NCBI GenBank assembly: GCA_903834765.1
Contig: CAILKE010000025.1
Coordinates: forward strand, 62,001-126,000
DNA length: 64,000 bases
Direction of reading: 5' to 3'
From: an uncultured Bacteroidota bacterium
GTDB taxonomy: Bacteria; Bacteroidota; Bacteroidia; B-17B0; Aurantibacillaceae
Both the position numbers and the translations under genes were made by a program. The notes below the pieces were generated by a model, which saw only the letters and a program-made list of their open reading frames with translations, was not told the origin of the DNA and made no database searches. Each line of letters starts with the position of its first letter. Position 1 is the stretch's first letter. Below are positions 38,557-41,897 of this stretch, one piece after another.

Positions 38557-38570
38557 TGACAAGCTTGTCA
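38557..38570. promoter_or_regulatory. Perfect 14-bp palindrome, candidate operator of the deacetylase operon
   Basis: TGACAAGCTTGTCA is two TGACAA half-sites with a 2-bp centre. It lies 28 bp before a -7-like CACCTTTG at 38598-38605 and 63 bp before the first small ORF. The same half-site architecture recurs at the fic promoter (40182-40203). Confidence 0.5.
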
Positions 38571-38632
38571 ACATGCCATTACCTTCCTAGTTCGTTGCAC
38601 CTTTGTATTGTTAAACTTAAAAACAAAACGAT

Positions 38633-38680
38633 ATGAAAACAACAAACCAACAACTAAAAAAGCACAATGAAGCCACATGA
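38633..38680 (+). CDS. Possible 15-residue leader ORF
   Basis: ATG 38633 opens MKTTNQQLKKHNEAT and stops at 38678-38680, in an ATGA overlap with the next ORF. It could couple translation of the downstream ORF. It has few features of its own and may be non-functional. Confidence 0.3.
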   Translation: MKTTNQQLKKHNEAT

Positions 38681-38826
38681 TTTTTTCTGTAATTCCATTT
38701 AAAGATTTCGAATATGAGTTACAGTTCATTAATCATGAAGGCATGGGCAATGTATACGAAATTCCATCAGCAAAAGATTTCAAAAACTCTCCTCCCAAAA
38801 TTTACGATGCATTTAATATTTACTAA
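38677..38826 (+). CDS. Unrecognised 49-residue ORF before the deacetylase gene
   Basis: The peptide starts MIFSVIPFKDFEYELQF, has HEGMGNVYEIPS in the middle and ends APPKIYDAFNIY-like (PPKIYDAFNIY). It has a globular-looking mix of aromatic and charged residues and uses no rare pattern, so it reads as coding. It overlaps the 15-residue ORF by ATGA and ends 53 nt before the deacetylase-like gene. No family is recognised; it may be a small partner protein or a truncated remnant of a larger one. Confidence 0.4.
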   Translation: MIFSVIPFKDFEYELQFINHEGMGNVYEIPSAKDFKNSPPKIYDAFNIY

Positions 38827-38879
38827 GTCGAGAATTAAGATAATGGCGATTATACTTCACGAAAAATAAAAAAATAAAC

Positions 38880-39803
38880 ATGAATAAAATAAAAACATTT
38901 TACACACCCAAACAAGTGTGCACCAACATGACTAACTCTTTTTCCAAAAGTCCGCTTAAACCGATGTTGTTAATGCAAAAGATTAAAGAAAAAGAATACA
39001 ACACGTTTTTTGATATTATTGATGATTTTGAACCTATTAAAAAATCAGATTTTTATTTAGCACATACAAAAAAGTATGTCGATAATGTATATAATAAAGA
39101 AGGTAATTATAATAGTAACTCTTTACCATGGAGTAAAGAATTGGTAAAGAGTTTACCTTATACTACAGGCTCTTTATTAGCTGCAAAAAGACATGCAATT
39201 CAAAATCCTGGAGAATTGTGTTTTGCTCCTATATCGGGTATGCACCATGCTTCACCAGGCTCAGGCTCAGGGTTCTGTACTTTTTCAGGACAAGTTATTT
39301 CAGCTATAAAAATTTATAAAGAATTTGGTTTATCAGGTGCATACTTTGATCTTGATGGGCATTACGGAAACAGTATTGATGATTCATATACTTTTAATAC
39401 ACTCCTTGAAAAAGCTATACCTCGGAAATGTAATGTTAATCCAAAAGGGTTAAATGAGAATTACATAAATGACTTTATACAGCAGTTAGATTATATTGAA
39501 GAGATGATTCTTGGTAATAAAGTACATTATGTAGTATTTGCTCACGGAGCCGATAGTCATAAAGACGACGATTTAGGTGGCCAGGTTAATACAGAATGTT
39601 GGATAAAAGCATCTGAAGTATTTGCTGAATGGGTAAATAAGGTATCAAAAAAATTAGGTAAACCTATACCAGTTGTCCTTTGCTTATTTGGTGGATACCG
39701 GGCCGACGATTACAACATCGTATTAGAGCTCCATTTAAAATCTTTATTGACATGTAATAGAATTATAAATTCAAAAGAACAAACTATTTCAAATGCAAAC
39801 TAA
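38880..39803 (+). CDS. Histone deacetylase-superfamily enzyme
   Basis: The 307-residue protein keeps the arginase/deacetylase active site. His122-His123 in MHHASPGSGSG are the charge-relay pair, Asp159 and His161 in FDLDGHYGN are zinc ligands, Asp230 in GADSHKDDDLGG is the third ligand, and Tyr273 in GGY is the transition-state tyrosine. The usual HHG after the first ligand reads HYG. Bacterial members remove acetyl or other acyl groups from lysines, polyamines or small molecules; the substrate here is unknown. It stands in the accessory segment next to fic and ssrA, with no homologous chromosomal neighbour. Confidence 0.8.
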   Translation: MNKIKTFYTPKQVCTNMTNSFSKSPLKPMLLMQKIKEKEYNTFFDIIDDFEPIKKSDFYLAHTKKYVDNVYNKEGNYNSNSLPWSKELVKSLPYTTGSLLAAKRHAIQNPGELCFAPISGMHHASPGSGSGFCTFSGQVISAIKIYKEFGLSGAYFDLDGHYGNSIDDSYTFNTLLEKAIPRKCNVNPKGLNENYINDFIQQLDYIEEMILGNKVHYVVFAHGADSHKDDDLGGQVNTECWIKASEVFAEWVNKVSKKLGKPIPVVLCLFGGYRADDYNIVLELHLKSLLTCNRIINSKEQTISNAN

Positions 39804-40017
39804 TAATAAAATGAAAAAATAATCTAAAAAAAATGAAAAATCAGTATCACTACATACTAGACTAAAGCGGATCAATGTCAGATTGCCTAAGAGCAACAAT
39901 AGAAGGAATCAACGTGCAAATTAATTCTCAGTGTTTACAGATTAAAAACTGATGATATTCCAAAGTATATAGTTTCTTGAAGATTTAAATAAAATCGCAT
40001 TGATTTTAAAATTAATA

Positions 40018-40056
40018 AAAATCTCAAATCCGCAATAAAAAGCGAATTTGAGATTT
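40018..40056. terminator. Long hairpin in the deacetylase-fic spacer
   Basis: AAATCTCAAAT plus CGC pairs with GCG plus ATTTGAGATTT around an A-rich loop. It may end the deacetylase transcript, though no T-run follows directly. Confidence 0.5.
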
Positions 40057-40165
40057 GTGGACTTTACCAATATTTTTTCGAACTCTTTTCTTGAAGATCT
40101 CAATAAAATGAGTGAGTTAAAGCAATATTTAAGCCTATAGTATTTTCTTTAAAAGGCGTATTTTC

Positions 40166-40188
40166 TCATGTATAAAAACTATACATGA
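40166..40188. promoter_or_regulatory. 9-bp inverted repeat overlapping the first fic operator
   Basis: TCATGTATA and TATACATGA are separated by 5 bp (AAAAC). The right arm forms the start of the dyad at 40182. Confidence 0.45.
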
Positions 40189-40263
40189 TAAACTTGTCAG
40201 GTATAAAATATTTAATTATCTTTACATGATAAGACCATCAGGTAAAAACGCTTTACATGACAA
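40182..40263 (+). promoter_or_regulatory. fic control region: three operator-like sites over a consensus-like promoter
   Basis: Site 1 (40182-40203) is TACATGATAA, 2 bp, TTGTCAGGTA. Site 2 (40223-40244) is TACATGATAA, 2 bp, CCATCAGGTA. A third half-site, TACATGACAA (40254-40263), covers the ATG at 40257. Site 1 contains CTTG at 40193-40196, 20 bp before the -7-like TATCTTTA at 40217-40224, whose end touches site 2. Binding would block initiation and the start codon, consistent with autorepression. Confidence 0.6.
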
Positions 40264-41363
40264 AAAGTAAAAAAAATATAGTTCCAGATAGTAAAATTGC
40301 ATTTAATAATCTGCCTTTTTTACCTCCTAATAAAGATAAAATTGAAACTGTAAAAGTCTTAAGGCAACTAGTAAAATCTTCAGTTGCATTGGCAGAATTA
40401 AAAGGAATAGTTCACATTTTACCAAATCCGGAAATTTTGCTTAATGCAGTTATTTTGAAAGAAGCTAGAGCTAGTTCGGAAATAGAAAATGTAATAACAA
40501 CACAAGACAAATTATACCAAGCCCTTTCTGCTAAAGGTATTCAAATAGATACAGCCACAAAGGAGGTTTTGCGATACCGCGAGGCAATGCTTTACGGAGT
40601 GAACTTTATAAAGAAGAAGTCATTTCTAACAACAAATGCAATTATTGAAATTCAAAAAATACTTGAAGAAAATAATGCAGGAATAAGAAAATTGCCAGGT
40701 ACTGCTCTTAGAAATGCATCTACAGGAAAAGTGATTTATACACCTCCTGACAATTTGGATGCTATAAATAGACTATTGAGAAACTACGAGCAATACATAA
40801 ATGAGGAAGATGATGTCCAACACCTAATAAAAATGGCTGTTCAACATTATCAATTTGAAAGCATCCATCCTTTTTATGATGGCAACGGGCGTACAGGTAG
40901 GATAATAAATATTTTGTGCTTAATTATGGGTGGACTGCTTGAAAACCCTGTTTTATTTTTAAGCGGTTATATAATAGATAACAAATCTGATTATTATAAA
41001 TTGTTACAAGAAGTTAGAACAAAAAAAAATTGGGAAACTTGGATTTTATTTATTTTGAAAGGAATAGAATCTACCGCAAATGAAACAATTTTTCAGGTTA
41101 ACCGAATAAACAAATTGTTTGATCAAACAAAAGGAGCGGTGCAAAAAATGATTCCTAAAATTTATAGTAAAGAATTGATTGAAATTTTGTTTGAGCAACC
41201 TTATTGTAAAAGCGAATATTTAGAAAATCGATTAGGTATTTCGCGAATTACAGCATCAAAATATCTTAAAGAGCTGGAAAAAATTGAAGTTTTAAAATCC
41301 AGAAAGGTTTGGAAAGAAACACTTTATATAAATACGGAATTATTTAACCTCCTGAAAAAATAA
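40257..41363 (+). CDS. Fic-family AMP-transferase with C-terminal winged helix
   Basis: The 368-residue protein has a Fic N-terminal domain and a Fic core with HPFYDGNGRTGR at 204-215, the complete catalytic motif with His204 and the Asp/Gly/Asn/Arg phosphate-binding set. Ser73-x3-Glu77-Asn78 matches the N-terminal inhibitory helix of class II Fic enzymes. Residues about 304-350 form a winged helix-turn-helix (LENRLGISRITASKYLKELE). Active members transfer AMP to hydroxyl side chains of proteins; class II are self-inhibited. The winged helix and the operators overlapping the start suggest autoregulation. No antitoxin gene is adjacent. Confidence 0.88.
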   Translation: MTKSKKNIVPDSKIAFNNLPFLPPNKDKIETVKVLRQLVKSSVALAELKGIVHILPNPEILLNAVILKEARASSEIENVITTQDKLYQALSAKGIQIDTATKEVLRYREAMLYGVNFIKKKSFLTTNAIIEIQKILEENNAGIRKLPGTALRNASTGKVIYTPPDNLDAINRLLRNYEQYINEEDDVQHLIKMAVQHYQFESIHPFYDGNGRTGRIINILCLIMGGLLENPVLFLSGYIIDNKSDYYKLLQEVRTKKNWETWILFILKGIESTANETIFQVNRINKLFDQTKGAVQKMIPKIYSKELIEILFEQPYCKSEYLENRLGISRITASKYLKELEKIEVLKSRKVWKETLYINTELFNLLKK

Positions 41364-41490
41364 ACTCAAAAGTTCGAATCCCTTTAAGATACTAGGCTAA
41401 AAAGGTCATTTTTTTAAATAGTTCGAACTCTACTTTTAAAAAACATAGTCTCTCGAACAACTAGTATTTACAGTTATTTCAGAGGAAATA

Positions 41491-41528
41491 AAAAAAGGGA
41501 CAAAACAAAAATATTGCTTTGTCCCTTT
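41491..41528 (-). terminator. Terminator of ssrA
   Basis: On the minus strand AAAGGGACAAA pairs with TTTGTCCCTTT and is followed by a run of T. It lies 4 nt beyond the tmRNA 3' end. Confidence 0.85.
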
Positions 41529-41531
41529 GGG

Positions 41532-41897
41532 TGGATCCGGAGAGATTCGAACTCTCGTCCAAACAAGGAATTAATAAGCTTTCTACAAAGTTTAGAACAT
41601 AATTGATTTTCGATTTAAGTCAGGCTTATATTCATACCAAAATTAAACTTAGATGCTAATATTGCTTTAGATAACATCATCTCTAAAACAAGTTGCTAAT
41701 TTATGATGCAATAATCTCGTCGCTAAGCAACAATGCTACGAGGATTGCAAAGGTTGGTTAGTCTTGGACTAAGCAGCCATAGCGTAAGAATTCTCTTCGC
41801 CGAATAAAAGTTTGAGAGTTGATTTTAAGGTGCCATATCCACAACGCACCACCTGCTTACTTATCAACCGCGCTCGCTGTCAAAACCGGTCGGACCC
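41532..41897 (-). ncRNA. ssrA: Transfer-messenger RNA (tmRNA)
   Basis: The RNA is about 366 nt, read leftward. Its 5' end GGGTCCG (41891-41897) pairs with CGGATCC (41533-41539) to form the acceptor stem, with discriminator A at 41532; CCA is not encoded. The 3' part contains a T-arm with GTTCGAATC. The tag frame at 41769-41801 (GGC GAA GAG AAT TCT TAC GCT ATG GCT GCT TAG) encodes GEENSYAMAA and a stop, close to Bacteroidota tags, with Met for the usual Leu. It rescues stalled ribosomes together with SmpB and tags products for proteolysis. It abuts the accessory segment at its 3' end. Confidence 0.95.

Follow-up and report, generated by a model that had tools for sequence, protein, structure and literature searches.

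A candidate self-directed operator array at the promoter of a SoFic AMP-transferase gene in an uncultured Bacteroidota bacterium

The fic gene in a 64,000-nucleotide stretch of DNA from an uncultured Bacteroidota bacterium (hereafter the window) is preceded by an array of six alternating half-sites. Judging from sequence comparison, its product, a SoFic, is very probably an anti-phage AMPylation toxin whose gene has a self-directed operator: the winged helix of the protein would bind the array and repress its own promoter. Such autoregulation is strongly supported computationally, by the layout of the array and by the co-divergence of its half-sites with the recognition helix of the protein.

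The SoFic gene and its product

The gene, the codons of its DNA-binding domain and the flanking RNA gene are as follows.

40257..41363, + strand: SoFic gene (fic), 368 aa, with Fic_N, Fic (HPFYDGNGRTGR) and a SoFic-like C-terminal winged helix
41115..41342, + strand: segment encoding the SoFic-like C-terminal winged-helix domain (residues 287-362; PF21248, 4e-26), modelled as three helices and a two-strand wing
41244..41282, + strand: segment encoding the recognition helix (residues 330-342, RITASKYLKELEK), a helix in the model and the best half-site co-divergence of all 13-residue windows
41530..41897, - strand: ssrA (tmRNA), tail-to-tail with fic

The gene encodes a SoFic, a class II Fic AMP-transferase from a known single-gene phage defence family. 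Its product combines Fic_N, the HPFxDGNGRxGR catalytic motif and the SoFic-like C-terminal domain (PF13784, PF02661 and PF21248, all above cut-off), and both the N-terminal inhibitory motif SSEIEN and the Fic motif are intact. It matches the PADLOC SoFic model at 3e-114 and scores 425 bits with NCBIfam NF046030 (SoFic), under the curated 550-bit cut-off; it is thus a divergent member of the SoFic family that falls short of NCBI's criterion for an equivalog. The AlphaFold model (mean pLDDT 89) is closest to the Shewanella SoFic 3zcn/3eqx (TM 0.93, about 44% identity) and places the helices of the winged helix at residues 305-311, 319-326 and 330-342, and its strands at 347-351 and 354-358. Anti-phage activity by AMPylation of host targets is known for E. 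coli SoFic (PMC12249575). The catalytic residues are present in the window's SoFic, and anti-phage AMPylation is putative here. No match to the fic region was found in phage records.

The 3' end of ssrA lies tail-to-tail with SoFic genes in six genomes (window 41363-41530; L028, L029, L049, L051 and L052). These SoFics belong to two distant subclades, 95% and about 41% identical to the SoFic of the window. Other SoFic genes adjoin tRNA genes, and the ssrA/tRNA flank is a recurrent insertion spot for SoFic genes. In E. coli S10 (L214, 1141-2216), the SoFic gene is annotated as frameshifted and lies directly 5' of a second Fic family gene.

The half-site array and its co-variation with the recognition helix

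The half-sites and the promoter among them are listed below; all six half-sites were scored with a matrix trained on orthologs.

40166..40175, + strand: candidate operator half-site 1, TCATGTATAA, rank 2 of 127,982
40179..40188, - strand: candidate operator half-site 2, CTATACATGA, template fit
40197..40206, + strand: candidate operator half-site 3, TCAGGTATAA, template fit, adjoining the -33 TTG
40220..40229, - strand: candidate operator half-site 4, CTTTACATGA, template fit, overlapping the -7 element
40238..40247, + strand: candidate operator half-site 5, TCAGGTAAAA, template fit
40251..40260, - strand: candidate operator half-site 6, CTTTACATGA, template fit, overlapping the fic ATG (40257-40259)
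40194..40224, + strand: Bacteroidota-type promoter, TTG (40194)-N20-TATCTTTA (40217-40224), mid-array

The six 10-bp half-sites (TCATGTAWAA/TTWTACATGA) alternate in orientation (+-+-+-) at offsets 0, 13, 31, 54, 72 and 85, forming a two-fold symmetric 95-bp array with same-orientation spacings of 31 and 41 bp. The array covers the -33/-7 promoter, which we take to lie at 40194-40224 from the Bacteroidota consensus, and ends on the ATG. The original prediction had described a dyad at the fic promoter, a weaker copy of it and a half-site across the ATG. All three are in place, the dyad (TGATAAACTTGTCA) exactly as described at 40186-40199, the weaker copy at 40227-40240 and the half-site at 40251-40260, and the dyads are parts of the larger six-half-site array. 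Although the proposed TGAYAA dyad is indeed present at fic, the conserved unit there is the longer half-site TCATGTAWAA, with six copies in 40166-40260.

The matrix was trained on orthologs from other genomes with the window left out, and with it the six fic half-sites took ranks 2-7 of 127,982 window positions. Further, the pair form WTACMTGAY-N6-RTCAKGTAW has just two exact matches in the genome, and both lie at fic. Matches to it with at most three mismatches numbered 81, against 50 for the control, which gives no clear sign of a further SoFic regulon in the genome.

The array is common to 45 orthologous upstream regions set side by side. For statistics, we used 131 SoFic loci, comprising 42 close orthologs (≥64% protein identity) and 89 more distant ones. 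Among the close orthologs, same-strand repeats peaked only at 31, 41 and 72 bp (36, 34 and 30 loci; null 1-2), and among the other 89 at 30, 40, 41 and 70 bp (25, 38, 22 and 19 loci; null 2-3). Of the 131 SoFic promoters, 78 fitted the six-half-site template at z≥3.5, compared with 2 of 140 promoters taken from adjacent genes. As a single template was fitted, SoFic promoters of other spacing were missed; 42 of the 131 failed to beat all nulls, some having differently spaced arrays and some none. Half-site columns are 86% conserved versus 63% for spacer columns. Of 36 close orthologs, all have TAnnTTTR 4 bp beyond the centre of the array, part of this string being half-site 4 itself, and 20 have TTG at -20 from the centre.

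About 40 close orthologs keep the layout; distant SoFics up to Proteobacteria, including E. coli, have it in a 30/40-bp form with a different half-site sequence (the gammaproteobacterial sample consisted of plasmid and E. coli records). SoFics of E. coli, Salmonella plasmids and alphaproteobacteria have related arrays built on a different word, ATATGTCGAT; the 30/40 spacing is evident in those of E. coli and Agrobacterium. In E. coli SoFic promoters, these half-sites, counted together with the TTAAACATAT variant, lie at -171, -131, -101, -61 and -31 on one strand and at -148, -118, -78, -48 and -8 on the other, with 40/30 spacing here too. The array of E. coli DA33135 (L215, 790-1130) is much expanded, with 40/30-bp alternation running at least to about -329. 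Across SoFic clades the half-site word differs while the register stays the same (TCATGTATAA, ACATGTCGAA, ACGAGGGCAA and ACAAGGGTAA).

The recognition helices vary in parallel with these words (e.g., SRITASKYL, KRQTAAEYL and NLKTVGNYL). The SRITA helix of the Bacteroidota SoFics goes with TCATGTATAA, and E. coli SoFic, with ATATGTCGAT, has an RRQTA helix. We quantified the co-divergence with partial Mantel tests on 13-residue protein windows, in which half-site distance was corrected for catalytic-domain distance; such tests reduce phylogenetic confounding and do not remove it, so kinship is only partly controlled in the values given here. Residues 323-337, at the start of the recognition helix, explained half-site distance best (partial r = 0.49 for 46 sequences at an 85% identity filter, and 0.57 for 17 sequences at a 65% filter), and 0 of 2000 permutations were as high. 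A signal at residues 51-63 was discarded as spurious, arising partly from the truncated sequence L150, without which the recognition helix ranked top. Where catalytic identity was under 50%, pairs that share their half-sites and pairs that differ in them were equal in catalytic identity (0.468 and 0.471), and the recognition-helix window differed most of all windows between the two sets. Furthermore, TGTCGA half-sites accompany an Arg-Gln helix in 10 of 10 loci and were found in 0 of 67 loci lacking that helix.

The fic promoter thus has inverted repeats that track the DNA-binding domain of its own product, as would be expected of a Fic-HTH autorepressor. The winged helix of SoFic, which had been named as the candidate regulator of fic, therefore appears a likely one, given the family-wide array and its co-divergence with the recognition helix. 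The array might instead be read by an unlinked host regulator or nucleoid protein. DNA binding by SoFic was stated in 2023 as not shown (PMC10628234), and because half-sites overlap promoter elements, some of the conservation could be sigma-factor constraint. However, the array accompanies the gene in both Bacteroidota and Proteobacteria, the half-sites vary between SoFic clades in step with the SoFic recognition helix, and no conserved regulator gene adjoins SoFic in the inspected loci. We thus consider an unlinked reader decidedly improbable.

The deacetylase gene and the DUF6717 element

Upstream of fic, three features bear on the proposal that a deacetylase-superfamily gene shares its regulator.

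38557-38570, no strand: palindrome TGACAAGCTTGTCA, apparently a separate promoter element of the decayed DUF6717 gene, not a SoFic site
38633..38826, + strand: decayed DUF6717 gene, intact (147 aa) in the relative G076
38880..39803, + strand: histone-deacetylase-superfamily gene, 307 aa (PF00850, 5e-21)

The original prediction was that one regulator, most obviously the Fic protein itself, would govern both enzymes through a common TGAYAA dyad. The palindrome is exactly where it was described, and it and the fic dyad, both exact, are 1.6 kb apart. The motif is also rare: pattern searches of the 3.63-Mb genome gave 11 exact matches to TGAYAANNTTRTCA versus 4 for a reversed control pattern, so that it is uncommon elsewhere, though not unique to this locus. 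Two such sites at this distance are unusual, but the pairing is post hoc, and at up to two mismatches the whole window holds fewer TGAYAANNTTRTCA-type sites than its shuffles, with no enrichment. Both dyads exist, yet they are two unrelated elements rather than one operator. They share only TGA-N8-TCA and a TTGTCA, and they resemble each other because the fic copy of TTGTCA falls on the -33 TTG of the promoter. With the same ortholog-trained SoFic half-site matrix, the arms of the palindrome rank 2,399 and 66,778 of 127,982 window positions, i.e., at background.

Nor is the deacetylase gene the first of its operon: the decayed DUF6717 gene, which starts 62 nt after the palindrome, lies between. 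Across the 87 genomes of the order, the 15-mer TTGACAAGCTTGTCA has four exact copies (window 38557-38633; L193, L199 and L202), and 4 of 4 stand 61-63 nt before a DUF6717 gene, the window's decayed one included. A fifth DUF6717 gene (L200) carries the 15-mer with one change. By this distribution the palindrome is a different element, one that belongs to putative DUF6717 promoters. No mention of DUF6717 was found in the open-licence literature searched.

Deacetylase-Fic neighbours were sought in relatives, and the two genes do not co-occur. G076 keeps the palindrome and a 96%-identical deacetylase, the closest relative of the window's, yet has no SoFic, and genomes with an 80-95%-identical SoFic have no deacetylase; a two-enzyme regulon is therefore rejected. 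Relatives accordingly offer no case of the same operator conserved at both genes. In view of the matrix ranks, the confinement of TTGACAAGCTTGTCA to DUF6717 promoters within the 87 genomes and the absence of co-occurrence in relatives, the shared operator was rejected, a single regulator for both genes is hardly credible, and the link of fic to the neighbouring deacetylase is coincidence.

In G076 (L114, G076:C8, 2656-5768), the intact DUF6717 gene, the deacetylase gene and a Sir2 gene stand in a row adjoining an AbiEii-type pair; the Sir2 gene is missing in the window. This set looks like a small defence-type island, of which the window has a truncated, decaying copy. In other deacetylase relatives (L118, 5214-7233; L120, 7259-9324), two conserved small genes of about 140 and 200 aa follow, with no Fic nearby.

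Proposed autoregulation and known systems

Since the half-sites track the recognition helix and the array covers the promoter, we propose that SoFic binds and represses its own promoter. SoFic dimers would probably bind pairs of half-sites through the C-terminal winged helix, and their occupancy of the -33/-7 promoter and of the start codon would block transcription. Such autorepression might keep the toxic enzyme scarce, with repression possibly released upon phage infection. We infer binding, repression and release, and the sign of regulation from promoter overlap only.

The array might mainly activate, or store or sense SoFic protein, instead of repressing. DNA binding alters the enzymatic activity of CbFic2 (PMC10628234), the position of the C-terminal domain governs SoFic toxicity (PMC12249575), and E. 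coli arrays reach as far upstream as about -329. On the other hand, overlap with the -33 and -7 elements and the ATG fits repression, and the related CccR represses, so we regard activation or storage as unlikely. As toxicity depends on where the C-terminal domain is positioned, the array might also act as a leash, in which promoter-held SoFic is AMPylation-inactive and is freed when phage damages, unwinds or takes over host DNA. This reading is rather improbable; if true, release would activate the enzyme and derepress the gene at once, and the cell's own DNA would serve as both antitoxin and infection sensor.

SoFic is a widespread one-gene phage defence. If it is autoregulated as proposed, the DNA bound by each SoFic, that of E. 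coli included, can be predicted from the conserved array, with its fixed 30-31/40-41 bp layout and its clade-specific word, and SoFic arrays provide a natural data set on evolutionary change of winged-helix recognition.

The characterized SoFics (Shewanella oneidensis SO_4266 and E. coli H397) have the same domain order and fold as the window's fic product. E. coli SoFic has the AS1 antitoxin downstream, whereas no ORF of more than 22 aa starts in the fic-ssrA gap of the window. The open-licence literature searched describes neither an operator nor DNA binding for known SoFics, in contrast to the candidate array found here. The 2013 structure paper does not mention the winged helix or an operator (PMC3667792), and that of 2025 assigns the C-terminal domain a role in toxicity, with no mention of DNA binding (PMC12249575). 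Among open-licence papers, the SoFic operator array thus appears undescribed; recent PDB entries (9tb0, 9tc4, 9tch and 9tcl) indicate that SoFic is under active study. CbFic2 of Coxiella burnetii is likewise a class II Fic with a DNA-binding winged HTH, but it has no known operator; random DNA was used, and it acts on histone H3 (PMC10628234).

CccR of Yersinia pseudotuberculosis, a class II Fic with a C-terminal HTH, is both an autorepressor and a T6SS effector; repression of its promoter depends on a single pair of inverted 10-bp repeats, AGATAATCAT-N26-ATGATAATCT (PMC9755527). It resembles the window's SoFic in joining Fic to a C-terminal HTH and in having inverted 10-bp repeats in its own promoter. 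The layouts differ: the fic array does not have the single inverted pair with a 26-bp spacer found for CccR, but six alternating half-sites of a different sequence at 31/41-bp same-orientation spacing. Moreover, the CccR-like structure 7xux is only 19% identical to the window's SoFic and differs in domain arrangement. The principle that a Fic-HTH protein represses itself is already known from CccR, and by analogy it may extend to SoFic.

In toxin-antitoxin modules, the product of the toxin gene keeps that gene repressed at tandem operators, through conditional cooperativity or multi-operator autoregulation. SoFic differs from these modules in that toxin and DNA-binding domain form one polypeptide, which would need no antitoxin partner for DNA recognition.
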